Part shown: piece by piece, positions 22,163 through 46,744 of the stretch | Layout: each line of letters opens with the position of its first letter | How positions within the stretch are numbered: the first letter of the stretch is position 1 | Assembly (NCBI GenBank): GCA_029782355.1 | Contig: JAKOUY010000002.1 | Coordinates: 1 to 64,000 of the forward strand | Direction of reading: 5' to 3' | DNA from: Actinomycetes bacterium | GTDB taxonomy: Bacteria > Actinomycetota > Acidimicrobiia > Acidimicrobiales > Ilumatobacteraceae | DNA: 64,000 nt | Made by a program: the position numbers and the translations under genes | The notes under the pieces: generated by a model | Databases searched by the model: none | What the model was told of the DNA's origin: nothing | The model's input: the letters and a program-made list of their open reading frames with translations, nothing else

Positions 22163-23809
22163 TCAGCGACCGATCAGCTCGTGCACCCGATCGGTCAGGC
22201 GGGACATCGCCGCCAGCTCGTCGCCCAGCGGACCGAGGACCCGCTGGTCGGCCACCCGGGCGATCGCCGCGGTCATCCGCCGGCGAGCCTCGCGGGCCCG
22301 CCTCCTGGCCGACCCGGCCGACGCCCAGCGGGCGAGCGCGGCGATCAGGAGCCCCAGGCCGGCACCGCCGATGGCCAGCAGGGTGGGCAGCGGGACGGCC
22401 CCGACGTGCACGGTGGGCAGCGTGGGCAACTGGAACCAGGCGACCACACCGATGACCAGGAGCCACAGCAGGCCGACGACCATCGCCACCGTGGCCAGGC
22501 GCTGGGCCCATCCGGCGAGGCCCCACCAGCGCGGCCGGTGCTCGGGGAGCTCGGTCGAGCCCACCGCCCGATCGAGGGCATCGGTCAGGTCGGCGCGGCC
22601 GGCCCGGGCGAGGTCGGCGAGGCGCTGTTGCCAGGCCACCGGCAACCCGTCGCCGAGCTGCTCGACCACTCGGCGGACGGCGTTGTCGACCTGCGCCGTC
22701 GCCATCGGTCCGGGCGCGCCGAGACCGGTCCGCGGCACCACGGCTGGTCCGGTGACCCGCGCGCTGCCGGGACGGCCGCCGGTCCGGCCGAGCCCGAGGC
22801 GGCGCAGTGGATCCGGCTTCAACCGTCCGACCCACCGGGTGGGAGGCCAGCCGGCTACCTGGGAGCTGATCCGGCGGTGGTGGGCGGCCACCGCGTCGGC
22901 CACCGCATCCACCCCGGCAGCGCCGGACAGGGCCTCGACCAGTTGCTGGCGGGCGTCGGAGCTGACCGGCCGGGGGGTGACCGGGCCGACAGAGGCGGCC
23001 AGCTGCTGGCCCAGCCAGTCGAGATCGGCGTCGAGCCGGGCGACCGCGGCACGGTGCTCCTGCACCCGTGCGGCCAGCTCACGGCGCAGGGCGTCGTGCC
23101 CCTCACCGGTGCGCGCCGATGCGGCCAGGACGCGCACACCGGCCGCACCCTCGGTCATGCCGCCGTCGGCCAGCAAGCGGCGGAGGTCGGCCATCGCCGC
23201 ATCGCGCTGCCCGGCCGGCAACGTGTCGATCTGGTTCATGACCACGACGGTGACCGCGGCGTGGTTGGCCAGGCCGCGCAGGTAGCCCTGGTGCAGAGCG
23301 GCATCGGCGTACTTCTGCGGATCGACCACCCAGCAGAACACGTCGACCACCTGGGCCAAGCGGTCGACCTCGGCACGATGGGCGGCCTGGATCGAGTCGT
23401 GGTCCGGCAGGTCGAGCAGCACCAGCCCGGCCATCGGCGGATCGACCACCACCTGGCGAGCGGGGACGTTCAACCAGTCGAGCAGCTCCCCGGCGGTGTC
23501 GTCGCCGGCAGCGGCGACGAAGACCAGCGCCTGGGCCACCGAGGTGGTCGGCCGGCGCACCCCGACCTGGGCGATGTCCCGCCCGGCCAGCGCGTTGAAG
23601 GTCGACGACTTGCCGCTCCCGGTGGCACCGGCCAGGGCGACGACGGTGAACGCCGACCCGTGGCCCAGCCGATCGCGTGCCCGCTGGCCGAGCTCGGCGG
23701 TCTGGCGGCCGAGGTCGGTGGGCAGGCGGTCGGCGCCCAACTGCTCGATCTCGGTCAGCGTCGCCAGGCGCCGCTGGAGGTGATCGAGGGCCGTGTCCTG
23801 GCGGCTCAT
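22163..23809 (-). CDS. Dynamin-like GTPase, second of a pair, membrane-spanning
   Basis: The 548-residue protein has a GTPase domain with G1 GATGSGKSSTFNAL at about residue 60, G3-like LLDLPDHDS and G4 MNQID, then a helical middle region. Two adjacent hydrophobic helices follow at about 440-490 (MVVGLLWLLVIGVVAWF and a second before ALARWAS), ending with a helical tail. This is the plan of bacterial dynamin-related or YeeP/Era-like membrane GTPases. Its ATG overlaps the stop of the partner GTPase by 4 bp. Such pairs act together in membrane remodelling (Streptomyces DynA/DynB, mycobacterial IniA/IniC); which process is involved here is unknown. Confidence 0.78.
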   Translation of the reverse strand: MSRQDTALDHLQRRLATLTEIEQLGADRLPTDLGRQTAELGQRARDRLGHGSAFTVVALAGATGSGKSSTFNALAGRDIAQVGVRRPTTSVAQALVFVAAAGDDTAGELLDWLNVPARQVVVDPPMAGLVLLDLPDHDSIQAAHRAEVDRLAQVVDVFCWVVDPQKYADAALHQGYLRGLANHAAVTVVVMNQIDTLPAGQRDAAMADLRRLLADGGMTEGAAGVRVLAASARTGEGHDALRRELAARVQEHRAAVARLDADLDWLGQQLAASVGPVTPRPVSSDARQQLVEALSGAAGVDAVADAVAAHHRRISSQVAGWPPTRWVGRLKPDPLRRLGLGRTGGRPGSARVTGPAVVPRTGLGAPGPMATAQVDNAVRRVVEQLGDGLPVAWQQRLADLARAGRADLTDALDRAVGSTELPEHRPRWWGLAGWAQRLATVAMVVGLLWLLVIGVVAWFQLPTLPTVHVGAVPLPTLLAIGGAGLGLLIAALARWASAGSARRRAREARRRMTAAIARVADQRVLGPLGDELAAMSRLTDRVHELIGR

Positions 23810-25527
23810 CGGGTCACCCCGTCGCGCAGCGCGTTGGACAGCCAGCGCAGCCGCCCACCGGCGTCGGCGTTGCCCGGCCGGGCGTCGACGACCTCGTGGT
23901 AGCGGGCCGCTTCGGCGTCGAGCAGGGCGGCGATGCGCGTCTGCAGATCCTCCCGGGCGTTGGCCGCGATGGTCCGCACGGCCTGGTCGCCGAGCAGGGC
24001 TTCGAGCAACTTGTGGCCGACCGCCGAACTGCCGCCGGCGATGGCGACCTCGGCGCCGGTCAGCCCACCGGTGTGGGCGAACACGCCGACCATGGTCACC
24101 AGGGCGACGCCGTTGACGCCGTAGGACAACGCCTTGGCGGCGTTGCGCTTGCCGGCACCTTCGCGCCGCAGGGTCTCCAGCAACTCGCCCTGCCAGTCGC
24201 GCACCAGCCGTTCGACCCGCTGGCCGAGGTCGGCGCTGGGACGGGCCAGGTCGGTCCGTTGCAACTGGCCGACCAGTGCCTGACCGGCGGGCACCGAGCG
24301 CCACTGCGACACCACCTCGTCGACGGCACGGGCGATCTCCTCGCCCACCAGTACCTCGACCCCGCTGGTGACGGCCCCCTCGAACTGCGTCGTGTTCGTC
24401 GCTCGCCCGTGCAGGGCGGCACCGATCCGGTCACGGACCCGGCCGATGCGCGACTGCAGCTGGTGGAGCAGTTCGCCGGTGCCGATGAGCTCGTGCCACC
24501 GAGCCAGCACCTCGCCGCGCATCACGTCGCCGTTGGCCACCGCCTGACCGATGCGCGCCGCTGCTCGGGCGAAGGATTCGTCGGCCCGGTCGGCCAGCCA
24601 GGAGCGCATCGCCACCTGGTGGTCGACCTGCGCGGCGACCGCCTCGACTCGCTGGGTCAGGTCGCCGACGGTCCCGACCAGGGCTCGGCGGACGATCTCG
24701 GTGCGGGCCTGCTGATCGCTGACCAGCGCGCCGAGCCAGGAGCGCAGCGGACCGACGACGGTGTCGGGCAGCAGGCCCTCGGCGGTCAGGGGCTGCTCGT
24801 CGATGGCGAACACCGGGGCGCCACCGAGGTCCTCTCGGCCCAGCATCTCGGTGAGGTGGGCGGCGATGTCCCCGGCCGCGCCGGGCGGGACCCGGTTGAG
24901 CACCAGGGCGATGGCCACGCCACGCTGGCGGGCCCGGCGCAAGAACTCCCAGGGCACGGCATCGGCGTAGCGGGCCGCAGTGGTGACGAACACCCACAGG
25001 TCGGCCGCGTCCAGCAGCTGGGCGGCCAGCTGGCGATTGGCGTCGACCACCGAGTCGAAGTCGGGGGCGTCGATCACGGCAAGATCGGCGGGCAGCGTGG
25101 TCGACTCGACCAGCTCGATCTGGGTGTGCCCGGTGGGGGTCCCGCCACGCACCCGAGCCAGGCCGGGCAAGATCCGGGTGGTCTCGAACCAACGCGTCGC
25201 CGACGGGTGGTGGACCAGGATCGGAGCGCGGGTCGTCGGCCGCAGAACCCCAGCCCGGGTCACCACCCGACCCATCAGGGTGTTCACCAAGGTTGACTTA
25301 CCCGCTCCGGTCGAACCACCGACGACCGCCAGCACGGGTGCGTCCACGTCGCGCAGCCGCGGCAGGACGTAGTCGTCGAGCTGATGGACCGCCTGGTCAC
25401 GCATCGCCCGGGCCTCGCCGGCTCCCGGCGACTCGAGCTGCAGCGACGCGTCGACCAGGGCGCCACGGAGCTGCTCGGCCAGCATCACCAAGCTCTGGGG
25501 ATCGATGGGTGCGTCGCCGATGTCCAC
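23806..25527 (-). CDS. Dynamin-like GTPase, first of a pair
   Basis: About 573 residues with G1 GGSTGAGKSTLVNTL, G3-like VIDAPDFDS, G4-like VLNRV, a long helical region, and a hydrophobic hairpin near residue 490 (GVNGVALVTMVGVFAH, then a Gly-rich helix) that could dip into the membrane. It is the promoter-proximal partner of the second GTPase. The start is uncertain: GTG 25527 gives a compact N-terminus, GTG 25554 is possible, and no ideal Shine-Dalgarno is present. Pairing through a 4-bp overlap suggests a heteromeric complex. Confidence 0.76.
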   Translation of the reverse strand: MDIGDAPIDPQSLVMLAEQLRGALVDASLQLESPGAGEARAMRDQAVHQLDDYVLPRLRDVDAPVLAVVGGSTGAGKSTLVNTLMGRVVTRAGVLRPTTRAPILVHHPSATRWFETTRILPGLARVRGGTPTGHTQIELVESTTLPADLAVIDAPDFDSVVDANRQLAAQLLDAADLWVFVTTAARYADAVPWEFLRRARQRGVAIALVLNRVPPGAAGDIAAHLTEMLGREDLGGAPVFAIDEQPLTAEGLLPDTVVGPLRSWLGALVSDQQARTEIVRRALVGTVGDLTQRVEAVAAQVDHQVAMRSWLADRADESFARAAARIGQAVANGDVMRGEVLARWHELIGTGELLHQLQSRIGRVRDRIGAALHGRATNTTQFEGAVTSGVEVLVGEEIARAVDEVVSQWRSVPAGQALVGQLQRTDLARPSADLGQRVERLVRDWQGELLETLRREGAGKRNAAKALSYGVNGVALVTMVGVFAHTGGLTGAEVAIAGGSSAVGHKLLEALLGDQAVRTIAANAREDLQTRIAALLDAEAARYHEVVDARPGNADAGGRLRWLSNALRDGVTR

Positions 25528-25570
25528 GAGCGTAGAGACTTCCCCCGGGTTCACCGAGCCACACCCTGCC

Positions 25571-26233
25571 TCAGGTCGAACGAGCTGACCCAGGGACGTG
25601 CCCGGCAATGCCGTCGAGCAGGCAATCGAGGGCGAACTGGAAGCGCTGCTCGGCATCTCCCTGGTAGAGCTGACCGGCCAGCCGGACGGACGTCGGGTAC
25701 TCGGCGGGATCCAACAGGCGGTAGGCGCTGCGCCAGCGTTCGTACGTCTGGCGGCGGGCGTCGGGCGGTTCGGCGGCCAGGGCGGCGTCGATCGCCGCCG
25801 ACCCGACGGTCAGCTCGATGAGCGCGTGGTAGGCCATCGTGGCTGCCTTCGGCTTCAGGCCGGCGGCACGCAGCTCGACGAGCAACCGCTCGGTGAGGTC
25901 GAACTCGTTGCGGTTGAGCGGCGGCCCGCTGCGGACCAGCTCGGCCAATCGCGGATTCCCGACGTGGGCGGCCCGCAGCCGCCGGCAGATCTCCACGACG
26001 GTCGCTCGCCAGTCGGACGCGGGCGGGGGCAGGTCGACGGTGACGGCCGACAGGATCCGATCGCTGACGGCGCGCATCAACGCGTCCTTGTCACGGAAGT
26101 GGCGATAGAAGGCGGTCGGGTCGACCCCGAGCACCTCGCCCAGCTGGGCCAGGGTGATGTCGTCGGTCGACTCGGTCAGCAGGGTCGCCGCAGCCTCGAC
26201 GATCAACTCGCGGGTCAGCCGGGCGCGGGCCAC
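25571..26233 (-). CDS. TetR-family transcriptional regulator
   Basis: The 220-residue protein has the TetR N-terminal HTH (LTRELIVEAAATLL, LAQLGEVLGVDPTAFYRHFRDKDALMRAV) and a C-terminal helical ligand-binding domain of the TetR_C type. It begins with GTG 4 bp after the acyl-CoA dehydrogenase stop, so the two are cotranscribed. It is the natural candidate to bind the 21-bp palindrome in front of the acyl-CoA dehydrogenase and thereby control both its own operon and the divergent hydrolase operon. The ligand is unknown, possibly an acyl-CoA. Confidence 0.88.
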   Translation of the reverse strand: MARARLTRELIVEAAATLLTESTDDITLAQLGEVLGVDPTAFYRHFRDKDALMRAVSDRILSAVTVDLPPPASDWRATVVEICRRLRAAHVGNPRLAELVRSGPPLNRNEFDLTERLLVELRAAGLKPKAATMAYHALIELTVGSAAIDAALAAEPPDARRQTYERWRSAYRLLDPAEYPTSVRLAGQLYQGDAEQRFQFALDCLLDGIAGHVPGSARST

Positions 26234-26237
26234 GACG

Positions 26238-27428
26238 TCAGCCGTCGACCTCGGGATACAGGCGCGCTCGGCCGAGACGCTCGATGCACACCTCGGCACT
26301 CCACGGCAGCATCGTGCTGCCCAGCCGGGCGTCGCGGTACATCCGCTCGAGTGGCAGCGACTTCTGCATCGACTGGCCACCGCACACCCGGATGGCCTTG
26401 GAGGCCACCGCCGCGGCGTTCTCCATGACCGTGACCGCCGCCGCCCATCCGGTGACCAGCTGCTCCTCGGTGGGGTCGACCACGGCCGTGTCGATGGCCC
26501 GGTACATCAGGGCCCGGGACTGCTGGTGGAGCAACTGCATCTCCGCCCACCCGGCCTGCTTGACCGGGTTGTCCCGCCGTGCCCCGGTGGTCATGCCAGG
26601 GAGTTCACCACGGAGGTAGGCCGCGGTCACGTCGAGGATCCCGCCGGTCAGGCCGAGGTACGAGGGGGCCAGCGAGAGGAACATCCACGGGTAGCGCAGC
26701 GCGGCCTGGTTGTACATCCCGGGCGGCATCCACTCGTTGGCGTGCGGCACGAAGGCGTCGGTCATCAGCAGCGTGCGCGACACCGTGCCGCGCATGCCCA
26801 GCGGATCCCAGTCGTCGACGATCTGCACGCCGTCGGCGTCGGCCGGCACGCCGAGGAGCCGGATCTCGTCCTCGCCGGGCACCTGGCAGGTCACGTTGTA
26901 GTAGTCCGCCGACCCGGACAGCGAGGCGAAGATCTTCCGGCCGGTCACCAGCCAGCCGCCCTCGACGGGCACCGCTCGGGTGAGCACGCCGGCCGTGGCG
27001 CCCGGGGCGACGCCCTCGCTGAACGGCTGGCTGTGGATCTTGCCGTCCTCCACCACCTGGCGGTACATCTCCGCCCGGGTGGCCTCGTGGTGCTCGCGCT
27101 GGGCGGGGGTCATGTCGAGGTGGTCGGCGATCTCCCCGCACCACAGCATCGTGGCGTTGTGCATGTTGAAGGTCAGCGCCGTCGCCCCGCAGTACCGACC
27201 GACCTCCTCGCTGACCCGGATGTAGTCGGCGTAGGTCGCCCCGGCACCGCCGTAGCCCGCCGGGACGGTGGCGCACAGCACCCCGTTGGTCCGGAAGTCG
27301 GCGAAGTTCTCCGTCGGGAAGCTGGCTTCCAGGTCGGTGCGAACGGCCCGCGCCGCGATGGTCGGGCCCATCGCCCGGACCGTGGCCACCAGTCGGTCGC
27401 GGACGGACAGTGCTGTGTCGCTGGTCAC
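26238..27428 (-). CDS. Acyl-CoA dehydrogenase family protein
   Basis: The 396-residue flavoprotein has the acyl-CoA dehydrogenase layout: helical N-terminal domain (VPAGYGGAGATYADYIRV), middle beta domain (GGWLVTGRKIFASLSGSADYY) and C-terminal helical bundle with RVCGGQSMQKSLPLERMYRDAR. It should oxidise an acyl-CoA, or hydroxylate in the manner of class D monooxygenase relatives. It is transcribed with TetR and divergently from the hydrolase-dioxygenase-permease genes. GTG 27428 is close to a predicted transcription start, so the mRNA may be nearly leaderless. Confidence 0.88.
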   Translation of the reverse strand: MTSDTALSVRDRLVATVRAMGPTIAARAVRTDLEASFPTENFADFRTNGVLCATVPAGYGGAGATYADYIRVSEEVGRYCGATALTFNMHNATMLWCGEIADHLDMTPAQREHHEATRAEMYRQVVEDGKIHSQPFSEGVAPGATAGVLTRAVPVEGGWLVTGRKIFASLSGSADYYNVTCQVPGEDEIRLLGVPADADGVQIVDDWDPLGMRGTVSRTLLMTDAFVPHANEWMPPGMYNQAALRYPWMFLSLAPSYLGLTGGILDVTAAYLRGELPGMTTGARRDNPVKQAGWAEMQLLHQQSRALMYRAIDTAVVDPTEEQLVTGWAAAVTVMENAAAVASKAIRVCGGQSMQKSLPLERMYRDARLGSTMLPWSAEVCIERLGRARLYPEVDG

Positions 27429-27436
27429 GGCTGCAC

Positions 27437-27465
27437 ACTCTGCGACGCGTCCGGCGAATTGTCAA
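27437..27465 (-). promoter_or_regulatory. Promoter for acyl-CoA dehydrogenase/TetR operon
   Basis: Read on the minus strand, a perfect -35 TTGACA (27465-27460) is followed after 17 nt by CAGAGT (27442-27437), a weak -10 that keeps the conserved A2 and T6. Initiation would fall about at 27430-27428, on or next to the GTG start codon, implying leaderless or near-leaderless translation. The -35 is one arm of the palindrome at 27458-27478. Confidence 0.55.
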
Positions 27466-27478
27466 TGTCGTTGACAAT
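27458..27478. promoter_or_regulatory. 21-bp palindromic operator shared by divergent promoters
   Basis: ATTGTCAA and TTGACAAT form perfect 8-bp arms around the 5-nt spacer TGTCG. Each arm contains a consensus -35 TTGACA directed outwards, one for each divergent operon. A repressor bound here would cover both -35 boxes at once. TetR encoded 1.2 kb away in the leftward operon is the obvious candidate; binding itself is inferred. Confidence 0.8.
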
Positions 27479-27499
27479 GAGCCGGACATGACTTACCCT
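27471..27499 (+). promoter_or_regulatory. Promoter for hydrolase/dioxygenase-like operon
   Basis: TTGACA (27471-27476), a 17-nt spacer and TACCCT (27494-27499) form a good sigma-70 promoter. The expected start point is about 27506-27508, at the GTG start codon of the hydrolase gene. There is no room for a Shine-Dalgarno, so the first gene is probably translated from a leaderless mRNA. Confidence 0.62.
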
Positions 27500-27507
27500 C
27501 GCCCGCT

Positions 27508-28311
27508 GTGTCGCCGGTCACAGACGCCAGCGCAGGAGGCTTCGCCTGGCGCGAGGCCGGTCACGGCCCGGCGTTGCTCCTGCTGCACGGACTCGGCGGG
27601 TCACGCCTGGCGTGGGAGGACCAGCTGGCCGGGCTCTCCGCCCAGCACCGCGTCGCCGCATGGGATCTGCCCGGCTACGGCGACTCCGACCCGCTGGACG
27701 AACCGACCACCTTCGCCGCCCTGGCCGCCGCCGTCGGGCGGTGGGCCGACACCCTCGGCGAGGAGCACGTCCACCTCTGCGGGATCTCCATGGGCGGGAT
27801 GATCGCCCAGTACGCCGCCGCGGCGATGCCCCACCGGGTCCGCTCGCTGACGCTGCTGTCGACCAGCCCGAAGTTCGGCCTCGACGGGACCGACCCGGAC
27901 GAGTGGCGAGCACGCCGGCTGGCCCCGCTGGACGCTGGACGGCAGCCCAGCGAGTTCGCCGAGGACGTGCTGTCCAGCATCGCCGGCCCGGCACTCGGTG
28001 CCGAGGCGTTCGCCCAGCAGGTGGCGGCGATGCGCCGGATCAGCGCCGAGGGGCTGCGCCGGAGCGTCGAATGCCTGGTGCATCACGACAGCCGGGCGAT
28101 CCTCGGCCAGATCGTCTGCCCGACCGTGATCCTGGTCGGCGAGCTCGACCAGGAGACCCCACCGGCGTACAGCGAAGCCATCCACCACGGCATCGCCGGC
28201 AGCTCGATGCACATCGTCCCGGGCGCCGGCCACCTCCTCAGCGCCGAGGCCCCGGACGCGGTCAACGCCACCATCCTGGCCCTGCTGGCCACGGTCGAGG
28301 GGGCCCGCTGA
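27508..28311 (+). CDS. Alpha/beta hydrolase, enol-lactonase-like
   Basis: The 267-residue protein has LLLLHGLGGSRLAWEDQ (oxyanion loop), AWDLPGYGDSD, nucleophile elbow CGISMGGMIAQ (Ser near residue 93), acid in VGELDQETP and histidine in PGAGHLLSAEAPD. It is most like 3-oxoadipate enol-lactonase/MhpC-type hydrolases used in aromatic breakdown. The GTG start lies at the predicted transcription start. Its TGA overlaps the ATG of the next gene by one base, so the two work in the same pathway or at least share translation. Confidence 0.85.
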   Translation: MSPVTDASAGGFAWREAGHGPALLLLHGLGGSRLAWEDQLAGLSAQHRVAAWDLPGYGDSDPLDEPTTFAALAAAVGRWADTLGEEHVHLCGISMGGMIAQYAAAAMPHRVRSLTLLSTSPKFGLDGTDPDEWRARRLAPLDAGRQPSEFAEDVLSSIAGPALGAEAFAQQVAAMRRISAEGLRRSVECLVHHDSRAILGQIVCPTVILVGELDQETPPAYSEAIHHGIAGSSMHIVPGAGHLLSAEAPDAVNATILALLATVEGAR

Positions 28312-29351
28312 TGAGCACCGAGTGGCGCTACGTGCGGGCCTTCGCCCAGCAGTTCGCCCGCTGCGGGCTGCACGCCGGCGAGTCGGTGGTGCTGCTCAGC
28401 GAGACCCAGAGCCGCGCCGCCGTGGTCGAGACCGCCCGGTTGGCGGCGCAGTCCAGCGGGGCGGCGGTCGTCGAGGTGGTCATGGCCACCCCGGCGAGCG
28501 TCCACCCGGTGCCCATCCGCAGCACCGGGGCCAGCCAGGCCATCGCCGCCAACCGCTCGGTGATCGCCGCCCTGCGCGCCGCCGACCTGGTGCTCGACTG
28601 CACGGTCGAGGGCCTGCTGCACTCCCCCGAGCTCGGCGAGATCCTGGCCGGCGGGTGCCGGGTGTTGATGATCAGCAACGAGCACCTCGACACCTACGAC
28701 CGGCTGCCGTGGGACGACGACCTGCCGCGCCGGGTGGACCTCGCCCACGAGCGCCTGCGCCACGCCCGGACCATGCACGTCACCAGCGCGGCCGGGACCG
28801 ACCTGACCGTCCAACTGGCTGGGGCGTTCACCGCCGGATCCACCGGGCTCACCGCCGGACCGGGATCGATCGCCCACTGGCCGGGTGGCCTCGTGCTGGC
28901 GTTTCCCGCGGCGCACTCGGTCAACGGGACCCTCGTCCTGTCCCCAGGCGACGTCAACCTGACCTTCGGTCGCTACCTCGAGTCCACCGTGCGCCTGACG
29001 GTGGCGGACGACTACGTGGTGGCGATCGATGGCGACGGCGTCGACGCCGAACTGACCCGCACCTATCTGTCGGCGTTCGATGCCGACGCCCTCGCAACCA
29101 GCCACGTCGGCTGGGGCATGAACCCGGCAGCCCGCTGGGACGTGCTGACGATGTACGACCGGCGCGAGCTGTGGGGTACGGAGGTCCGGGCGTTCGCCGG
29201 CAACTTCCTGTACTCCACCGGCGCCAACGAGACCGCCGGGCGGTTCACCGCCGGGCATGTTGACCTGCCGATGCGCCACTGCACCGTGACGCTCGACGGA
29301 ACCCCGGTCGTCGCCGACGGCCGGCTCATCGCCGACTTGGCCGGGCCGTAG
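28311..29351 (+). CDS. M29-aminopeptidase-like / 2,5-dihydroxypyridine dioxygenase-like protein
   Basis: The 346-residue protein resembles the family that joins thermophilic M29 aminopeptidases and NicX-type 2,5-dihydroxypyridine 5,6-dioxygenase. It has an N-terminal Rossmann-like half (GESVVLLSETQSRAAVVE), TMHVTSAAGTDLTVQL in the middle, and the metal-ligand region LATSHVGWGMNP with GNFLYSTGANE and MRHCTVTLDG near the end. The neighbourhood (lactonase-like hydrolase, permease, aminotransferase) favours ring cleavage or another catabolic role over peptide hydrolysis, but the choice is not settled by sequence reading. Confidence 0.65.
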   Translation: MSTEWRYVRAFAQQFARCGLHAGESVVLLSETQSRAAVVETARLAAQSSGAAVVEVVMATPASVHPVPIRSTGASQAIAANRSVIAALRAADLVLDCTVEGLLHSPELGEILAGGCRVLMISNEHLDTYDRLPWDDDLPRRVDLAHERLRHARTMHVTSAAGTDLTVQLAGAFTAGSTGLTAGPGSIAHWPGGLVLAFPAAHSVNGTLVLSPGDVNLTFGRYLESTVRLTVADDYVVAIDGDGVDAELTRTYLSAFDADALATSHVGWGMNPAARWDVLTMYDRRELWGTEVRAFAGNFLYSTGANETAGRFTAGHVDLPMRHCTVTLDGTPVVADGRLIADLAGP

Positions 29352-29390
29352 TGCCACACTGAGCGGCACCACATCCAGATTGGGGGATCC

Positions 29391-30821
29391 ATGGAAGGTG
29401 CGGATACCGACGCGGTACGCCTCGGGAACAAACAGCTAGGGACGATCGATTGCGTCGCCCAGTCACTGGCCGTCGGCCCGGTGTTCAGCGCCGTGCTGCT
29501 CGGCGCAGTGCTGGCCATCCTCTCGGCCGGTGACGGTCCGTGGGCGCTGATCATCACGCTGGTCGGCATGCTGGGCATCGGCTGGACGGTCAGCGAGTTC
29601 GCCAAGCGTTACAGCGGATCGGGCACGGTGTACGAGTTCATCGCCCACTCCGCCGGCAAGCGGATCGCCGTCCTCGCCGCGGGGGCCTACTACTTCGCCG
29701 TCTTCGCCCTGTCGGCGGTGGCCATCCCCATCGTCGGGGGCATCCTCATGCACCACTTCGCCCAGAACCACTGGGGGTTCGACTGGCCGTGGTGGCTGTG
29801 GTCGCTGATCGTCATCGCCGCGATCTTCGTGATCAACACGATCGGCGTCCAGGTGTCGGTGCGCACGCAGCTGGCCATCATCGTCGCCTCGATCCTGCCG
29901 CTGATGATCCTGGCCATCGCCGTGTTCGCCGACGGCGGGCCGGATCAGGCCAACTCGTTCGACTTCACCAAGGTCTTCCCCAACCCGTCGCTGTTCAAGG
30001 GGTTGCTGTTCGCCATCCTGCTCTACGTCGGCTTCGAGCTGTCGGCGGCGCTCGGGGAGGAGACCGCTAACCCGAAGCGCTCGATCCCGCGAGCGGTGCT
30101 GGCCACGCTCGGCATCGTCACCGTCATCTACCTCGTCACGCAGGTCATGCTCAACGTGGGCGCCCGGGCCGACACCGGGCCGGACTTCGGCAACATGGCC
30201 AACCACTACGTCGGCCACTGGCTGCAGCTGTGGATCGAGGTCGGCCTGATCCTCGATGTGCTGGCCGTGGGCATCGGCTTCTGCCTGGCCGGGGCACGCG
30301 GGGTGTTCACGCTCTCTCGTGACGGGCTGCTGCCGGCCTGGTTCGGCAAGACCAGCAGCCGCGAGCAGCCCCAGAGCGGCAACGTCACCGTGGCCGTCGT
30401 CGGGGTCATCTGCGTGCTGATCGCCCTGGCCAAGTACGGCACCAAGGCGACCCTGCCGCCCGAGCAGTTCCCGTTCCCCGACGACGCCTTCCAGGCCTTC
30501 CTGGTGTGCTCGACCATCGGCGGGTTCATCATCTGCATCATCTACGCCCTGCTGTGCCTGGGTGCGTTGAAGAGCTTCGCCACGCGCCGGCCGATCGACC
30601 TGCTCGCCGCGGTCGTCGGGCTCGGGTTCGCCGGCCTCGGCGTGGCCGCCCAGTTCATCGACGGCACCGCTCCGGTGGGTGACGCAAAGTGGGGCATCTG
30701 GATCTCGCTCATCGCCCTCGCCGTGCTCGTCGTGTGGGCGGTGACCGCCCGCCAGCGTGCCGTGGACAACGTCGGGCGGCACACCGTGCACCACGGCCAC
30801 GAGGTCCCGCACCCGGCCTGA
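29391..30821 (+). CDS. APC-superfamily amino acid/amine permease
   Basis: The 476-residue protein has about 12 hydrophobic helices and the APC opening GTIDCVAQSLAVGPVFSAVLLG. The canonical region YVGFELSAALGEETANPKRSIPRAV (given in part) corresponds to the helix 6 area with GEE-x-x-NP, and GFCLAGARGVFTLSRDGLLP follows. It imports an amino acid or amine by proton symport. It lies 39 bp after the dioxygenase-like gene and just before a PLP aminotransferase, which suggests uptake of an amine that is then deaminated. The C-terminal tail is histidine-rich (VGRHTVHHGHEVPH). Confidence 0.87.
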   Translation: MEGADTDAVRLGNKQLGTIDCVAQSLAVGPVFSAVLLGAVLAILSAGDGPWALIITLVGMLGIGWTVSEFAKRYSGSGTVYEFIAHSAGKRIAVLAAGAYYFAVFALSAVAIPIVGGILMHHFAQNHWGFDWPWWLWSLIVIAAIFVINTIGVQVSVRTQLAIIVASILPLMILAIAVFADGGPDQANSFDFTKVFPNPSLFKGLLFAILLYVGFELSAALGEETANPKRSIPRAVLATLGIVTVIYLVTQVMLNVGARADTGPDFGNMANHYVGHWLQLWIEVGLILDVLAVGIGFCLAGARGVFTLSRDGLLPAWFGKTSSREQPQSGNVTVAVVGVICVLIALAKYGTKATLPPEQFPFPDDAFQAFLVCSTIGGFIICIIYALLCLGALKSFATRRPIDLLAAVVGLGFAGLGVAAQFIDGTAPVGDAKWGIWISLIALAVLVVWAVTARQRAVDNVGRHTVHHGHEVPHPA

Positions 30822-30892: not shown

Positions 30893-32128
30893 GTGCTCGA
30901 CGCCTCGCGCTACACGCTCGCCCCCGGCGGGGATCACCCGCCGGTGATCGTCGGCGGGCAGGGCGTCTACCTGTACACCGACGACGGCCGGCGGATCCTC
31001 GACGGGTGTGCCGGCGCCATCGTCGGCAACATCGGCTGGGGCCGGCCCGAACCGGCCGCGGCAGCACAGCAGGCCATGGCCGAGGGTGGATACGTGGTCC
31101 CGATCTGGGCCACCCGGCACCGATTGGATCTCATCGAGCGGCTGACCGAGCGATGGCTGCCAGAGGGGTTCGACCGGGTCTTCCTGACCAGCGGCGGCAG
31201 CGAGAGCACCGACTCGGCGATGCGCCTGGCGCGCACCTACCAGCTGGCGATGGGGCGCCCGGAGCGGTGGAAGATCGTCGGCCGCCATCCCAGCTTCCAC
31301 GGCATGACCCTCGGCACCATCGCCGTGGCCAGCCACGCCGGACGCCGCGCCGGGTTCGAGCCGATGCTCGTCGACTTCCCCAAGGTCCCCTGGGACGACC
31401 CGGCCGCCGTGGTCGAGGTCATCGAGCGGGAGGACCCCGGCACGATCGCCGGGTTCCTCGCCGAGCCGATCATCGGCGCCGCCGGCGCCTGCCTGTCGGC
31501 CTCCGACGAGTACTGGGAGACGGTCACCGACCTGTGCCGGCGCCACGACATCGTGCTGATGGCCGACGAGGTGATGTGCGGGTACGGACGGACCGGGACG
31601 ACCTGGGGCCACCAGCACACGCCGATGGAGCCGGACGTCATCGTCGGCGGCAAGGGTCTGGGCGGCGGGTACGTGCCCATGGGCGCGGTGGCCGCCTCGC
31701 GGCGGATCACCGATGCCCTCGGCTCCCGCCAGCTGATGTTCTTCACCTTCTGCGGGGCGGATGCGGCGTGCGCGGCATCGTCGGTGGTGCTGGACATCCT
31801 CGAGTCCGAGCAGTTGGTCGAGCGAGCGGCGACGCTCGGCACCCGCCTCGGTGCGGCCCTGCGAGCCGAGCTCGGCAACCACTCGCTGGTGGCCGACGTC
31901 CGCGGCCGGGGCATGTTCTACGGCGTCGAGCTCCGCTGCCCCGCCGCTGCGGTGGTGGCCGAGACGTTGCGCCGCGACCTGTTCGTCTATCCCGCCGGGA
32001 CGGGAGCCGACCCGGTGCCCCAGGCGGTCATGGTCGCACCGCCGTTCGTGGTCGACGAGGCCGAGCTCGACGACATCGTCAGCCGGTTGGGCGACGCCCT
32101 CGACGAGATCGCAGCTCGGCGCCCATGA
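30893..32128 (+). CDS. Class III PLP-dependent aminotransferase
   Basis: The 411-residue enzyme has the class III layout: LYTDDGRRILDGCAGAIVGNIG at the N-terminus, SGGSESTDSAMRLAR, FLAEPIIGAAGACL, MADEVMCGYGRTGT and the PLP lysine in VGGKGLGGGYVPMG. It transfers the amino group of an omega-amino acid or amine to a keto acid. The GTG at 30893 is chosen because homology starts at once and a hairpin lies just upstream. Its stop overlaps the ATG of the FAD reductase (ATGA), pointing to a joint pathway. Confidence 0.87.
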   Translation: MLDASRYTLAPGGDHPPVIVGGQGVYLYTDDGRRILDGCAGAIVGNIGWGRPEPAAAAQQAMAEGGYVVPIWATRHRLDLIERLTERWLPEGFDRVFLTSGGSESTDSAMRLARTYQLAMGRPERWKIVGRHPSFHGMTLGTIAVASHAGRRAGFEPMLVDFPKVPWDDPAAVVEVIEREDPGTIAGFLAEPIIGAAGACLSASDEYWETVTDLCRRHDIVLMADEVMCGYGRTGTTWGHQHTPMEPDVIVGGKGLGGGYVPMGAVAASRRITDALGSRQLMFFTFCGADAACAASSVVLDILESEQLVERAATLGTRLGAALRAELGNHSLVADVRGRGMFYGVELRCPAAAVVAETLRRDLFVYPAGTGADPVPQAVMVAPPFVVDEAELDDIVSRLGDALDEIAARRP

Positions 32129-33339
32129 CGGCGACGGATCGGCTGGTCGTCGTCGGCGCCTCGTTGGCCGGGTTGCGCGCCTGCGAGACGGCACGCAGCC
32201 GCGGGTTCGCCGGCCCGATCACCCTGGTCGGCGCCGAGACCGGAGCGCCCTACGACCGGCCGCCGCTCAGCAAGAAGCTGCTGGCCGGCGAGTGGGACGC
32301 CGAGCGCATCCGTCTGCGCAAGAGCGACGAGCTGGCCGCTCTCGACCTGGAGCTGCGCGCCGGGGTCCGGGCCGTGGAGCTCGACACCCGAGCAGCCCGG
32401 CTGACGCTGGACGACGGCACGACGCTCCCCTACGACGGCCTGGTCATCGCCACCGGCGCCGAGCCACGACGCCTGCCCGGTCAGCCCGATCTCGACGGGG
32501 TGGTCGAGCTGCGCACCCTGGCCGATTCGCTGGCTCTGCGCGGCCGGCTCCGGCCCGGGCATCGCCTGACGGTGATCGGCGCCGGGTTCATCGGGTTGGA
32601 GGTGGCCGCGACCGCCACCCAGGCCGGCTGCCGGGTGACGGTGCTGGAAGGCGCGCCCGCCCCGATGATCCGTGGACTCGGGCCGGCACTGGGGCAGGCG
32701 GTGGCCACCGTGCACCCGCGCCACGGCGTCGATCTGCGCTGCGGGGTCGCCGTCGACGGCATCGAGGGGTCGTCCGGCGTGGTGCGCGCCGTGCGCCTGG
32801 CCGACGGCCAGCGGGTCGAGTCGGACACCGTGCTGGTGGCCATCGGGGTCCGCCCGAGCATCGACTGGCTGGCAACGAGCGGGCTGGCGCTGGGCGACGG
32901 CGTGGTCTGCGATGCCACCCTGCGAACGTCGGCGGAGCGGGTCTTCGCCGCCGGGGACTGCGCCCGCTGGGACCACGAGCTGTTCGGCGAGGAGATGCGC
33001 GTCGAGCACTGGACCAACGCCGCCGAGCAGGGCGCGGCCGCCGCGGCCAACCTGCTGGGGACCCTGGCCGGTGAGCCGGCCGAGCCGTACCGCGCCGTGC
33101 CCTTCTTCTGGAGCGACCAGTTCGAGCGGCGCATCCAGTTCGTCGGCCGGGCCCACGGTGACGACGAGATCCGGGTGATCGCCGGAGACCTCGACGGTGA
33201 CTTCGCCGCCCTGTACGGATACGGCGGACGGTTGCGTGGCGTGCTGGGGGTCAACCTGCCCAAGGTGGTCATGCCCTACCGGCGGCTGCTCGCCGAGCGG
33301 GTCTCGTGGGCCGATGCGCTGCGCCACGCCGACGCCTAA
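32125..33339 (+). CDS. FAD-dependent NAD(P)H:ferredoxin reductase-type oxidoreductase
   Basis: The 404-residue protein has the FAD-binding LVVVGASLAGLRACE, APYDRPPLSKKLL, the NAD-binding VIGAGFIGLEVAA near residue 150 and VFAAGDCARW. This is the plan of the reductase component of Rieske oxygenases and cytochrome P450 systems (BphA4/PdR type), with the C-terminal reductase domain around FFWSDQFERRIQF. No ferredoxin, oxygenase or P450 gene is adjacent, so its electron acceptor must be encoded elsewhere. ATGA overlap with the aminotransferase. Confidence 0.88.
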   Translation: MTATDRLVVVGASLAGLRACETARSRGFAGPITLVGAETGAPYDRPPLSKKLLAGEWDAERIRLRKSDELAALDLELRAGVRAVELDTRAARLTLDDGTTLPYDGLVIATGAEPRRLPGQPDLDGVVELRTLADSLALRGRLRPGHRLTVIGAGFIGLEVAATATQAGCRVTVLEGAPAPMIRGLGPALGQAVATVHPRHGVDLRCGVAVDGIEGSSGVVRAVRLADGQRVESDTVLVAIGVRPSIDWLATSGLALGDGVVCDATLRTSAERVFAAGDCARWDHELFGEEMRVEHWTNAAEQGAAAAANLLGTLAGEPAEPYRAVPFFWSDQFERRIQFVGRAHGDDEIRVIAGDLDGDFAALYGYGGRLRGVLGVNLPKVVMPYRRLLAERVSWADALRHADA

Positions 33340-33611: not shown

Positions 33612-34841
33612 ATGTCCCATCTGTCCAACGTGTGGTTCTCGGTCACCGACCTGCGGGTCGCCAGCGGCCAGGGGTGCTGGGTCACCACCACGGACGGCGA
33701 GCGCTACCTCGACTTCGCCGCCGGCATCGCCGTCAACTCGACCGGCCACGCCCACCCGGACGTCAGCGCGGCGATCGCCGCCCAGGCCCAACGGTTCCTC
33801 CACGCCCAGGTCAACGTGTACCGCCACGACCTGCTCGACCCGCTGGCCGACCTGCTCGACGAGATCACCCCGGAGTCGATCGACACGTTCTTCTTCGCCA
33901 ACTCCGGGGCGGAGATCACCGAGGCCGCCATCAAGCTGGCCAAGCAGGCCACTCGCCGCCCGCACGTCATCGTCTTCTCCGGCAGCTTCCACGGTCGGAC
34001 CCACCTCGGCATGGCGATGACCACGTCGAAGACCGGGTACCGCGCCGGGCACGCCCCGCTCCCCGCCGGCGTCTTCGTCGCCCCGTACCCCGACCCGCTG
34101 GCGGCGGACCACGACGCAGCCGTGGCCGGTGCGCTCGCCGGGCTGGATCACGTGCTCAAGTCGCTCACCGCACCCGACGAAACGGCCGCCATGATCCTCG
34201 AACCGGTACTGGGCGAGGGTGGCTACGTGCCCGCACCGCAGGCCTTCCTCGAGGGTGTGGTCGAGCGCTGCCGGCGGTACGGCATCCTGTTCGTCGCCGA
34301 CGAGGTGCAGAGCGGCGCCGGGCGCACCGGGCGGATGTGGGCGGTGGAGCACTACGGCGTGCAACCGGACGTGATCTGCATGGCCAAGGGCATCGCCAGC
34401 GGCTTCCCCTTCGCCGCGCTGGGCACCCGCCGGGAGCTGGACGACCGGTGGCCGACGGGCAGCCACGGTGGCACCTACGGCGGCAACCCGATGGGCTGCG
34501 CCGCGGCGATCGCCACCATCGGGGTGCTCCGCTCGCCCGGCTTCCTCGACAACGTCGTGGCCCGCGGCCGCCAGCTCACCGATGGGCTGCGCCGGTTGCA
34601 GGCCGAGCACGACACCATCGTCCAGGTGCGCGGCCCGGGTCTGATGGTTGGCACCGAGCTGGGTGATGCCGGCCGGGTGGCCGCCGTCCAACGCCATTGC
34701 CTGGAACACGGCCGGCTGATCCTCATGAACGCCGGCACCTACGGGACGTGCCTGCGCTGGATGCCACCCCTGGTGGTCGACGAGGCGGAGATCGCCCACG
34801 CCCTGGGCGCGTTCGAAGCGGCGCTCAAAGCCACGGCCTGA
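33612..34841 (+). CDS. Class III aminotransferase, 4-aminobutyrate aminotransferase-like
   Basis: The 409-residue enzyme has GERYLDFAAGIAVNSTGHAHP, FFANSGAEITEAAIKLAK, SGSFHGRTHLGMAMT, LEPVLGEGGYVPAP, FVADEVQSGAGRTGRMW and the PLP-lysine loop MAKGIASGFPFAALG. It is close to GabT or acetylornithine/GABA-type enzymes, and distinct from the first aminotransferase 1.5 kb upstream. No succinate-semialdehyde dehydrogenase (gabD) is adjacent, so the substrate is open. The MarR gene starts 4 bp after its stop. Confidence 0.87.
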   Translation: MSHLSNVWFSVTDLRVASGQGCWVTTTDGERYLDFAAGIAVNSTGHAHPDVSAAIAAQAQRFLHAQVNVYRHDLLDPLADLLDEITPESIDTFFFANSGAEITEAAIKLAKQATRRPHVIVFSGSFHGRTHLGMAMTTSKTGYRAGHAPLPAGVFVAPYPDPLAADHDAAVAGALAGLDHVLKSLTAPDETAAMILEPVLGEGGYVPAPQAFLEGVVERCRRYGILFVADEVQSGAGRTGRMWAVEHYGVQPDVICMAKGIASGFPFAALGTRRELDDRWPTGSHGGTYGGNPMGCAAAIATIGVLRSPGFLDNVVARGRQLTDGLRRLQAEHDTIVQVRGPGLMVGTELGDAGRVAAVQRHCLEHGRLILMNAGTYGTCLRWMPPLVVDEAEIAHALGAFEAALKATA

Positions 34842-39853: not shown

Positions 39854-41854
<2,001 letters not shown>

Positions 41855-41933
41855 CGGATGGTTCGCAGGCCGGCGGTCACGTGGGTCGCGCCCGCAGAAG
41901 CGCTGGTCAAGGCTAGCGAACGTGGCCGAGGGT

Positions 41934-43418
41934 TCATCCGCGACCGTCCGTGGCGAAGAGATAGTCGAGGACCTTCTTGGCGATCGGGCCGCACAGGGTG
42001 CCACCGGTGGACTCGCTGACGTCGTCGCCGGGGCCGCCCTTCAGCATGCAGGCGATGGCGTAGCGCGGCGCCTCGGCCGGGGCAAAGCCGACGATCCAGG
42101 CGTTGGAGCGCTGCGGCCCCTTGGTGCTCAGCTGCGCCGTGCCGGTCTTGGCCGCCGCCTGGATGCCCCCGGCCAGCTGCATCTTCTTGCCGGTCCCGGT
42201 GTTGACCACGCCGATCATCAGCTGGGTCATCTGCTGGGCGACGTTGGTGCTGATCGGTCGCTTCCACGGCGAGGGCGAGGTCTTGGTGAGCACCGTGCCG
42301 TCGTGGGCCAGCGTCTCGTCGACGATGTACGGCTTCATCATCACCCCGCCGTTGGCCACGGTGGAGGCGACCAGTGCCATGTGCAGCGGGAGCATGGCGT
42401 CGTTGCCCTGGCCGAAGCCGCCGATGGCCAGCAGCGGCAGGGTCCTGGAGAACTTGGCGGCGTCCTGGCCGAAGCGGCTGGCGGCCGGGGAGGGCAGGTC
42501 GTAGGGGATCTGCTCGTCGACGCCCCACGCCTTGACACCCTGGGTCATGCCCAGCGGGCCGACGGCGAGGGCGGTCTGGGCGAAGGGAATGTTGCAGCTC
42601 TTGGCGAAGACCTCCGGCAGCGTGCCACCGCAGTTGTGGCCCTTGAAGTTCTGGATCGGATTGGTGGTCTGCGGCGGCAGCCAGCTGTTGGTCACCGGGA
42701 AGGTCTGATCCATCCGCAGCACGCCGGATTGCAGGGCGATGCTGGTGGTGATGATCTTGAACGACGAGCCCGGCATGTAGTTCTCCTGGTAGGTGCGGTC
42801 CAGGAGCGGGTCGGTGGGCTGGGCCTGCAGGAAGCGCAGGGCCGCCTCGGACTTGCGGGTGTTGTGCACGACGATCAGGTTCGGGTCGTAGGCCGGGCTG
42901 CTGTACGCCGCCAGCACCGCGCCGGTCCGTGGGTTGACGACCACGATCGAGCCGGTGCGCTGACCGAGGGCCTGGGCGACCACCTTCTGCAGGTCGGCGC
43001 GCACGGTGAGCTTGACCGAGCCGGAGTTGTCACCCTTGAACAGATCGGTGACCGACTGCAGGTCCTGGGCGGGCGTGTCGCCCATGAGCACCTTGTTGAA
43101 CGACTGCTCGAGCTGGGTCGAACCGAAGTTCAAGGTGTAGTAGCCGGTGATGTTCCCGAACAGGGTGCCGAGCGGGTAGCGCCGCTGGAACTTGAAGTTG
43201 TCGCCCGGCGAGGTGGGCACGCTGTCGGCGATGACCACCCCATCGGCGGTGACGATCGGGCCGCGCGGCCGGTTGAAGTCGCGGATCGACTGCCGGTTGT
43301 TGCGCGGGTCGGCGGCATAGCGGCCCTGGCGAGCCACCTGGATCACGTTGAGCTGGACGAAGAGCACGACGAAGCACACCAGCAGGGCGAGGGCCAGCTT
43401 GCGGATCCGGCTGTTCAC
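41934..43418 (-). CDS. pbpA: Penicillin-binding protein PbpA (class B transpeptidase)
   Basis: The 494-residue protein has one N-terminal membrane helix (LALALLVCFVVLFVQLNV), a dimerisation region and a transpeptidase domain with SXXK in MPGSSFKI, SXN in AKSCNIPFAQ and KTGT in AAKTGTAQL. It cross-links peptidoglycan together with the SEDS glycosyltransferase encoded by the gene before it. The GTG start overlaps the rodA stop by 4 bp; a longer frame to 43457 would lie inside rodA and is rejected. 79 bp separate it from pknB. Confidence 0.93.
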   Translation of the reverse strand: MNSRIRKLALALLVCFVVLFVQLNVIQVARQGRYAADPRNNRQSIRDFNRPRGPIVTADGVVIADSVPTSPGDNFKFQRRYPLGTLFGNITGYYTLNFGSTQLEQSFNKVLMGDTPAQDLQSVTDLFKGDNSGSVKLTVRADLQKVVAQALGQRTGSIVVVNPRTGAVLAAYSSPAYDPNLIVVHNTRKSEAALRFLQAQPTDPLLDRTYQENYMPGSSFKIITTSIALQSGVLRMDQTFPVTNSWLPPQTTNPIQNFKGHNCGGTLPEVFAKSCNIPFAQTALAVGPLGMTQGVKAWGVDEQIPYDLPSPAASRFGQDAAKFSRTLPLLAIGGFGQGNDAMLPLHMALVASTVANGGVMMKPYIVDETLAHDGTVLTKTSPSPWKRPISTNVAQQMTQLMIGVVNTGTGKKMQLAGGIQAAAKTGTAQLSTKGPQRSNAWIVGFAPAEAPRYAIACMLKGGPGDDVSESTGGTLCGPIAKKVLDYLFATDGRG

Positions 43419-44803
43419 TGGCGGCCCGCCCAGGTCTGGTCGTTGCGCTTGCGCCACGCGGTGAACCGCTCGCCCACGGTCAAGGTGTCGGGCGTCTCGC
43501 CCAGCCGCCGGGCCGTGGAGTCGCTGATCCGGACCAGCAGGGCCAGCAGCACGTAGTTGCCGAGCAGGCTGGACCCGCCGTAGCCGACGAACGGCAGGGC
43601 CACGCCGGTGAGTGGGACCACCCGGGTCACCCCGCCGATGATGATGAACGCCTGGATGCCGATGATGGTGGTCAGGCCGGTGGCCAGCAGCTTCTCGAAC
43701 GGCCGCTCGGCGCGGGTGGCGATGCGCAGGCCGGCGCCGATCATCAGCAGGAAGGCGATCAACAGGGCAGTGGCTCCCAGCAGGCCGAGCTCCTCACCGA
43801 TGGCGGCGAAGATGAAGTCGTTCTTCGCTTCGGGGATCTTGTTGGGCGTGCCGAGGCCGAGGCCGCGCCCGCCGACCCCACCGTCGGCCATGGCGAAGAT
43901 GGCCTGCACCGGCTGGAACCCACGTCCTCCGGTCTCCGGTCCGTAGCGCGACCATGGGTCGAGCCACAGGGCGACGCGTAGCTGGACGTGGCTGAACAGT
44001 CGCCAGGCCACGTAGGCCGCGGCGGCGAAGCTGAGCACCCCGATGACGAGATAGGAGGCCCGCTCGGTGGCCACCCAGACGACCACGACGAAGAGCGTGA
44101 AGAACAGCAGCGACGACCCGAGGTCCTTCTCGGCCACCATGACCACCACGGCGAAGGCCCACGCGGCCAGGATCGGCAGCAGGTAGCGAGGCTCGGGCAG
44201 GCGCAACGGGCCGACCTTCCAGGTGCTGGCCGAGATCAGCTCGCGGCGCTCGGCCAGGTAGCCGGCGAAGAACAGGGCCAAGGCGATCTTGGCGAACTCG
44301 CCGGGTTGGAAGTTGACCCCGCCGACGTACACGCCGATGCGCGCCCCGTTGTTCAGCGCGCCGACGCCGGGCACCAGTGGCATGAGCAGCAGGGCGATGC
44401 CGATCAACAGGAAGGTCCACTTGTAGCGGGCCAGGTCGGACGCCCGCTGGACGACCAGCAGGGTCAGCACGTAGGCGGCGACGGCGATGAACGTCCAGGT
44501 GGTCTGCAGCGCGGCGAGGCGGTCGTTGAGCCGGGCGATCATCACGTAACCGATGCCGTTCAAGAGCGCCGCCAGCGGCAGCAGCGTGCCGTCGGCACCG
44601 CGGGCCAGGAAGCGGTTGGCCACGTGGGTCAGCACGAGGATGCCGACGATGGCGATCAGGAAGGCGACCAGCCGAGGCGGCAGCACGGCGTTCTTGCCCA
44701 GGGCCGCCAGGGTGTACGCCGCGCCGGTGACGATCGCGGCCATCAGCGCCAGACCGAGCTCGGTGTTCCTCCGGGCGGTGGCGACGGTGCGCGGGCGGGT
44801 CAT
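43415..44803 (-). CDS. rodA: SEDS-family glycosyltransferase RodA/FtsW
   Basis: The 462-residue protein has 11 or 12 membrane helices and the SEDS motifs NNGARIGVYVGGVNFQPGEFAK, AEKDLGSSLL, and near the end PLTGVALPFVGYGGSSLL. It polymerises lipid II into glycan strands and works with its cognate class B PBP, here PbpA in the next gene with a 4-bp overlap. The order pstP-rodA-pbpA-pknB identifies it as the RodA of the mycobacterial cluster; the last residues (ERFTAWRKRNDQTW) form a short basic cytoplasmic tail. Confidence 0.92.
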   Translation of the reverse strand: MTRPRTVATARRNTELGLALMAAIVTGAAYTLAALGKNAVLPPRLVAFLIAIVGILVLTHVANRFLARGADGTLLPLAALLNGIGYVMIARLNDRLAALQTTWTFIAVAAYVLTLLVVQRASDLARYKWTFLLIGIALLLMPLVPGVGALNNGARIGVYVGGVNFQPGEFAKIALALFFAGYLAERRELISASTWKVGPLRLPEPRYLLPILAAWAFAVVVMVAEKDLGSSLLFFTLFVVVVWVATERASYLVIGVLSFAAAAYVAWRLFSHVQLRVALWLDPWSRYGPETGGRGFQPVQAIFAMADGGVGGRGLGLGTPNKIPEAKNDFIFAAIGEELGLLGATALLIAFLLMIGAGLRIATRAERPFEKLLATGLTTIIGIQAFIIIGGVTRVVPLTGVALPFVGYGGSSLLGNYVLLALLVRISDSTARRLGETPDTLTVGERFTAWRKRNDQTWAGRQ

Positions 44804-44816
44804 GGTCGGTCGGCGG

Positions 44817-46187: not shown

Positions 46188-46744
46188 CAGTCGGCCTCGA
46201 AGACGGTCTGCCCGACCTGCAGGCTGTCGCCGCGGTCGAGCACGGTGATCTCGGCGATGCGCCGGCCGTTGACGAAGGTGCCGTTGGTGGAGCCCATGTC
46301 CTCGACGCGCACGTGGCCGTCGAGCCGGAACACCCGGGCGTGCAGGCCGCTGGCGAAGGTGTCCGAGGCCAGCGAGATGATGCAGGTGTCGTTGCGCCCG
46401 ATGGTCAGCTCGCGGTCGACGGCGAACTCGGCGCCCTTGTGCTCCTTGGGCGACACGATGACCAGCTTGTTGGCGATGCCGCCCTTGCCGCGGCGGACCT
46501 TGATCCGCCCTGACGAGCCGGCCGGCACGGGCGCGCCGGCGGTGACGTCGACGGGCGCGACGGTGCGCGGCATCGACTTGGCCAACGGCGCGGGGGTGCC
46601 GGTGTTGTGCTGGAACGGGCTGCGCTTGGGCTGGCGGACCTCGCTCCACACCGCCCACAGGACGCGGGCGAAGAACAGGTACAACAGTGCCAGCAGGGCG
46701 TACTTCAGGACACCCAGCAGATCCTCGGTGGCGCCGAGGATCAC
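46187..46744 (-). CDS. fhaB: FHA-domain protein FhaB (FipA)
   Basis: The 185-residue protein has an N-terminal membrane helix (VLKYALLALLYLFFARVLW), a basic linker and a C-terminal FHA domain with LTIGRNDTCIISLA, SGLHARVFRLDG and DMGSTNGTFVNGRRI. FHA domains bind phosphothreonine; the mycobacterial FhaB links PknA/B signalling to the divisome. The GTG start overlaps the fhaA stop by 4 bp (GTGA), and its stop overlaps pstP. Confidence 0.92.
   Translation of the reverse strand: MILGATEDLLGVLKYALLALLYLFFARVLWAVWSEVRQPKRSPFQHNTGTPAPLAKSMPRTVAPVDVTAGAPVPAGSSGRIKVRRGKGGIANKLVIVSPKEHKGAEFAVDRELTIGRNDTCIISLASDTFASGLHARVFRLDGHVRVEDMGSTNGTFVNGRRIAEITVLDRGDSLQVGQTVFEAD

Follow-up and report, generated by a model that had tools for sequence, protein, structure and literature searches.

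A Palindrome Carrying Both −35 Hexamers as a Predicted Bidirectional Operator-Promoter Between Divergent Operons of an Ilumatobacteraceae Genome

Introduction

How can two divergent operons be controlled together when only 79 nt separate their start codons? This question is raised by a locus in the window, a stretch of 64,000 nt from an Actinomycetes bacterium of the family Ilumatobacteraceae (assembly GCA_029782355.1, contig JAKOUY010000002.1), in which a minus-strand GTG at 27428 and a plus-strand GTG at 27508 lead in opposite directions and a palindrome stands mid-way between them. Bidirectional operators between divergent operons are familiar from bioA/bioBFCD and from tetR/tetA of Tn10, and divergent genes that share one operator are an established arrangement. 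What seems unusual here, judged from the sequences compared, is that the arms of the operator appear to serve as both −35 hexamers, that two leaderless-looking genes are involved, that the layout recurs in many species, and that it appears to grow by half-sites.

Two lines of earlier work touch on this design. The bidirectional bacterial promoters described in an excerpt of PMC10268837 show symmetry of the −10 element and start points that are mostly 18 bp apart. According to a portion of PMC3160421, leaderless genes are marked by the motif TAnnnT some 12 nt upstream of the start codon and account for more than 20% of genes in Actinobacteria.

Genes on Either Side of the Palindrome

The left operon begins with an acyl-CoA-dehydrogenase-fold flavoprotein gene (ACAD; 26238-27428, minus strand; Pfam PF02771, PF02770, and PF08028), followed by a gene for a TetR-family regulator (25571-26233, minus strand). 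The latter carries both TetR_N (PF00440, E 4.2e-7) and TetR_C_1 (PF02909, E 1.3e-16), each beyond its curated cut-off, has linked orthologues in related loci, and is the predicted operator binder. Downstream of it, GTPase-like genes occupy 22163-25656 on the minus strand; the one at 23806-25656 matches Dynamin_N, and the other was judged by eye.

The right operon, on the plus strand, opens with an alpha/beta hydrolase gene (27508-28311; PF00561, E 1.9e-28), whose stop codon is overlapped by the ATG of a NicX-like dihydroxypyridine dioxygenase gene (28311-29351; PDB 7cn3, E 7.6e-52). On the same strand follow an APC-type amino-acid permease (29391-30821; PF13520), a class-III aminotransferase (30893-32128; PF00202, start codon inferred), a ferredoxin-NAD reductase-like flavoprotein (32125-33339; PF07992 and PF14759), and a second class-III aminotransferase (33612-34841; PF00202, start inferred), which is the possible end of the operon. 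Further along the window, the cluster at 39854-46658 resembles, from its translations read by eye, a PASTA-domain kinase, a penicillin-binding protein, an FtsW/RodA-like protein, and a PP2C phosphatase.

At a threshold of E 0.001, the only match of the NicX-like protein among solved structures was the 2,5-dihydroxypyridine 5,6-dioxygenase NicX, and the same threshold gave no match in Pfam and NCBIfam. This silence of both libraries on 28311-29351, despite the good alignment with NicX, may mean that they lack a model for the group. The four iron ligands of NicX (His265, Ser302, His318, and Asp320) are all identical in the alignment; the list of His, Ser, His, and Asp is that given in a part of PMC7910607. 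Like the NicX of nicotinic acid breakdown treated in that part, the protein retains the iron ligands together with a substrate-side Leu-His pair; unlike it, the NicX-like protein here has the ACAD-fold flavoprotein and the TetR as neighbors. Because these ligands occur alongside a permease, aminotransferases, and a ferredoxin-reductase-like protein, the right operon looks catabolic, probably for a pyridine-type ring. In L058 (6803-8308) and its relatives a glutamine-synthetase-like gene comes after the NicX-like gene, and the ORF group to which it belongs is present in 24 loci, though not in the window.

Anatomy of the Palindrome and Its Predicted Promoter Elements

The palindrome, ATTGTCAA-TGTCG-TTGACAAT (that is, ATTGTCAATGTCGTTGACAAT), lies at 27458-27478 and consists of perfect 8-bp arms around a 5-bp center. 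As a predicted operator it belongs to neither strand; it stands between the divergent genes and overlaps both predicted promoters, since an outward-facing TTGACA is contained in each arm. The rightward predicted −35 occupies 27471-27476 on the plus strand, and the leftward one occupies 27460-27465 on the minus strand, where it is read from 27465 to 27460. After a spacer of 17 nt in either direction come the predicted −10 hexamers, TACCCT to the right (27494-27499, plus strand) and CAGAGT to the left (27437-27442, minus strand). The GTG of the hydrolase gene (27508-27510, plus strand) and that of the ACAD gene (27426-27428, minus strand) each follow 8 nt past their −10, and 31 nt separate the last base of TTGACA from the GTG, left and right alike.

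An earlier note on this DNA had proposed a consensus −35 in each arm with a −10-like hexamer at 17 nt on both sides, and this is borne out, with the qualification that both −10 hexamers agree with TATAAT at only 3/6 positions and that the weak left one lacks the first T. Its further statement, that both genes begin with GTG at or near the predicted start point, agrees with the 8-nt distances. Within the window each GTG is also the sole in-frame start between the arm and itself. As for the leaderless mark TAnnnT, the right TACCCT fits at 8 nt from the start, and the left CAGAGT, also at 8 nt, is without the first T. Since 8 nt follow the −10, transcription would perhaps begin 0-2 nt before the GTG, and "leaderless or nearly so" is therefore the accurate wording for these predicted starts. 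A strict sigma-70 scan of 25000-30000 returned no promoter, and the case for the predicted promoters leans on the related loci rather than on the hexamers of the window alone.

With up to 3 mismatches allowed, the palindrome is its own sole match in the window, and 100 shuffles gave 0 matches. Throughout the organism's own 3.79-Mb genome, the same tolerance yielded one further match, a 3-mismatch site on contig 19, so that the search for the palindrome elsewhere in the genome found it to be unique apart from that site. A reading of the palindrome as a hairpin or terminator was also considered and set aside: it lies upstream of both predicted starts, and a terminator scan found none.

Related Loci Used for Comparison

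Scanning with the NicX-like protein turned up 37 loci, most of them from metagenome-assembled genomes titled as actinobacteria; the titles also include one Acidobacteria, two given only as uncultured bacterium, and six Bifidobacterium breve. Thirty-three loci were treated as divergent, namely 31 of these 37, the window itself, and L106 from genome G032, which belongs to the window's family. The divergent pair was defined by the ACAD and hydrolase genes, except in L045 and L050, where the NicX-like gene was tested on the right instead. The six scanned loci left aside comprise L046, L048, L049, and L069, which have no adjacent ACAD gene in the available DNA, L061, in which the hydrolase gene is cut off, and the co-directional L064.

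Fourteen control loci (L064 and L109-L121), with 4.4 to 13 kb of DNA each, carry related enzyme genes arranged otherwise. Eight of them are co-directional with ACAD (L064, L109, L110, L111, L114, L115, L120, and L121), four have the hydrolase and NicX-like genes and no ACAD in the available DNA (L112, L113, L116, and L119), and two are divergent with NicX ahead of the hydrolase (L117 and L118). A NicX-like match was present in 40 genomes, the organism's own included; longer DNA was compared for 14 NicX loci, 13 of them being L109-L121, and the rest were covered with at most about 1.5 kb of flank.

The 33 loci share descent, so the counts given below are not independent. When the ACAD proteins were grouped at 90% identity, 17 groups resulted, and the two-sided layout occurs in at least one member of 11 of them. 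In the ACAD tree the operator loci cluster together (support 0.74), with an outgroup that is not monophyletic and several weak inner nodes (0.28-0.73); the single-palindrome form appears in two main clades, and forms with separated arms are scattered among the single ones.

Conservation of the Operator and of Its Distance to the Starts

Of the 33 divergent intergenic regions, 31 match the operator core TGTCAACANNGTTGACA at no fewer than 13/15 positions, and in each of these 31 the score exceeds that of all 300 shuffles of the region's own DNA. The two lower scores belong to L051 (12/15) and L053 (11/15), which are no better than shuffles even though a TetR is present in both. The full-site consensus used was TTTGTCAACACNGTTGACAAA. 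The window has the center TGTCG against the consensus CACNG, scores 13/15, and contains no exact match to the core. Operators are found ahead of the hydrolase gene also in the four loci without an adjacent ACAD gene in the available DNA (L046, L048, L049, and L069), at 14/15 all the same; all four bear the title Bifidobacterium breve, perhaps through mislabelling.

Spacing is conserved along with sequence. All 33 loci have TTGAC 27-32 nt ahead of an in-frame start on their ACAD side; 24/33 have it there on the hydrolase side, and 24/33 on both. Resampled intergenic DNA put to the same test gave 1.6% per side and both sides in 0/9,900 cases, the control being a first-order resampling rather than an exact dinucleotide shuffle, with the same freedom of start codons for real and resampled DNA. 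A single palindrome carries both arms in 18 of the 33 loci, with −35 hexamers 5 bp apart and start codons 74-79 nt apart; the symmetric design on one palindrome that the earlier note saw in a single sequence is thus found in more than half of the divergent loci, the window among them. In a further 6/33 each start lies 28-31 nt from a TTGACA, with the arms wider apart, and the remaining 9/33 show this distance for the ACAD-side arm alone. To this last class belong L041-L043 (GGTCAACACTGTTGACT), where the palindrome is kept though its hydrolase-side arm is not at −35 distance. The class also includes the named strains among the loci, Kineosporia (L042 and L043) and Flexivirga caeni (L051).

With the −10 hexamer taken as the best of spacers 16-18, a choice that has no control of its own, the pattern xAnnnT was found on the hydrolase side in 24/24 two-sided loci and on the ACAD side in 27/33; in the other 6/33 ACAD sides the A is missing even at the best of the three spacings. 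The pattern stands 6-8 nt before the start in the relatives, many of which have the full TAnnnT, and in L055 an alternative start would lie at 9 nt. The nine loci that have no hydrolase-side arm show xAnnnT 6-8 nt before an in-frame start in 9/9 (no shuffled control), so that these starts, too, may lack a leader and have their −35 at another position.

Beyond these loci, an exact match to the core was found in 2 of 395 genomes of the class. One is the module of G032, from the window's family; the window's own genome is without such a match. In the other genome the core occurs on two contigs and precedes the gene for a distant TetR (27% identity) with a similar recognition helix, VDATACYRHF compared with VDPTAFYRHF; this protein may be a related regulator that recognizes the same sequence. 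The two sites are L107:237-253 and L108:6364-6380, and in L107 a PAP2-like protein, judged by eye, comes next. A broader palindrome search of 199 relatives with up to 2 mismatches scored in 68/199 genomes, the organism's own included, and was dismissed as background, a reversed-pattern control scoring in many genomes too; among the matches listed for these relatives, all but that of the window have 1-2 mismatches.

The Candidate Regulator

Of the 33 divergent loci, 22 have a linked TetR orthologue. In 13 it follows ACAD on the same strand, in one (L054) it is on the strand of the right operon, and in eight it sits past the right operon on the other strand. Seven of the 11 loci that have no TetR consist of DNA that ends early on at least one side (L037, L038, L041, L050, L057, L062, and L068). 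The other four (L045, L055, L056, and L059) have the operator, no TetR, and seemingly enough DNA, and they count against the link. Neither a TetR orthologue nor an operator (best 12/15) was found in the 4.4 to 13 kb of DNA of the 14 control loci, the absence of TetR being limited by the shortness of some of them (L109, 4.4 kb). Among ORF groups common to at least five loci, part of which were scanned for domains, no regulator besides TetR was recognized. Helix and operator can also be compared across loci: L051-L053 combine the helix residues VHPTA with a diverged operator, and L042 and L043 combine VHPTA with the common center. From the association of TetR and operator in gene neighborhoods we infer that the TetR is tied to the operator, its binding being a prediction.

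Half-Site Arrays

Some intergenic regions contain more than one palindrome's worth of half-sites. Tandem half-sites at 12-bp steps lie between the divergent genes at L033:5071-5166 and L034:5066-5154, and three copies, again at 12-bp steps, are found at L040:5095-5136. The gap between the outward −35 hexamers, which is 5 bp in 18 loci, widens to 17 bp in L035 and L038, 18 in L037, 53 in L034, 65 in L033, and 228 in L065; all six of these loci have a TTGACA 28-31 nt from each start. Four of the six wider gaps equal 5 plus 12 multiplied by 1, 1, 4, and 5 (L035, L038, L034, and L033), and those of L037 (18) and L065 (228) are not exact. These cases represent few independent events, as the ACAD proteins of L033 and L034 are at least 95% identical and L035, L037, and L038 fall into one group at 90%.

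One tentative reading, which we regard as possible though doubtful, is that the arrangement is a modular ruler, in which TetR half-sites would be added in 12-bp units and the end half-sites would always double as −35 hexamers, the shortest form offering a single polymerase berth with alternate firing. If true, repression and polymerase docking would take place on the same bases whatever the length of the array.

Proposed Mechanism and Alternative Explanations

The reading we favor, and consider likely, is that of a bidirectional operator-promoter, in line with the suggestion of the earlier note that one TetR dimer could shut both operons. A dimer of the TetR encoded at 25571-26233 would bind the 21-bp palindrome, although the protein could also act as two dimers rather than one. 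The arms of the palindrome would double as outward −35 hexamers, with transcripts starting at the GTG or within a base or two of it, and the bound repressor would mask both hexamers, so that the ACAD-tetR operon and the operon of the hydrolase and NicX-like genes would be off together. As tetR sits in the left operon, it would also repress itself. The site would be freed of its repressor by a compound of the pathway, which is probably a hydroxylated pyridine or derives from one. The free site would then fire left or right in turn, with one polymerase at once, because two polymerases would hardly fit together on −35 hexamers only 5 bp apart.

The promoters may be as described and yet be read by a regulator that is not linked, for example an unlinked protein of the GntR or MarR type. 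This is unlikely, though it would account for the operators of L045, L055, L056, and L059, which stand in seemingly long enough DNA with no linked TetR, and for the eight loci of 33 that have their TetR past the right operon on the other strand. It sits poorly with a linked TetR in 22/33 divergent loci against 0/14 in loci arranged otherwise, with the failure to recognize another regulator in the shared ORF groups (part scanned), and with the occurrence of this core in a further genome, where it precedes a distant TetR gene. Quite improbable is a related reading that accepts a true TetR operator and has the transcripts carry short leaders from further upstream, or leaves the predicted GTGs unused. 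The 8 nt between −10 and GTG in the window, compared with 6-7 in many relatives, would suit it; yet all 33 loci keep an in-frame start 28-31 nt away from their ACAD-side arm, and in the window, to the left and to the right, no other in-frame start lies between the arm and the GTG.

The perfect TTGACA in each arm invites the thought that the palindrome is nothing other than two consensus −35 boxes back to back, its symmetry arising from two promoters and read by no protein. We hold this to be very improbable, since the conserved bases extend past the hexamers and the center is conserved as well, since L041-L043 keep the palindrome where no hydrolase-side arm is at −35 distance, and since the additional half-sites of L033, L034, and L040, which follow one another every 12 bp, have no evident promoter role. 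Finally, a chance palindrome accompanied by meaningless promoter-like hexamers could be imagined from the weak −10 elements and the empty strict promoter scan, but it is scarcely credible in the face of 0 matches in 100 shuffles, a core conserved in 31/33 divergent loci, and fixed distances to the starts.

Comparison with Known Systems

The predicted bidirectional operator-promoter resembles bioA/bioBFCD and Tn10 tetR/tetA in having one operator region and apparently one repressor for both operons, with a regulator that may sit in one of the two units. It differs from them in that the −35 hexamers coincide with the palindrome arms, that neither start seems to have a leader, and that many species share the layout. 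With the −10-symmetric promoters, as presented in the excerpt of PMC10268837, it shares the principle that symmetry of sequence leads to divergent transcription from one site; compared with what that excerpt describes, the symmetry here surrounds the −35 hexamers, 74-79 nt lie between the start codons, and both transcripts code for proteins. As among the leaderless genes of Actinobacteria covered by portions of PMC3160421 and PMC3898074, where such genes are common in the phylum, a TAnnnT-type motif lies about 12 nt before the start, complete in many relatives and on the right of the palindrome in the window, and lacking the first T on the left. The surveys, in those portions, deal with single genes, whereas here two leaderless-looking genes share one operator.

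Six sequence forms of the operator were not found in the literature searched. A literature search by title and opening of the abstract likewise produced nothing describing a leaderless layout with a −35 in both arms, and we make no claim of its absence from print.

Conclusions

This analysis supplies a predicted operator motif and a predicted regulator for a recurrent actinobacterial gene set, which appears to encode an uncharacterized route for opening a pyridine-type ring. It also offers a compact example from nature of how recognition by the repressor, recognition of the −35, and the choice of start codon would be brought together in one sequence of about 80 bp, along with natural variants in which the promoters are further apart, often by 12-bp steps. 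With such a system, polymerase competition and the selection of leaderless starts would become directly testable.
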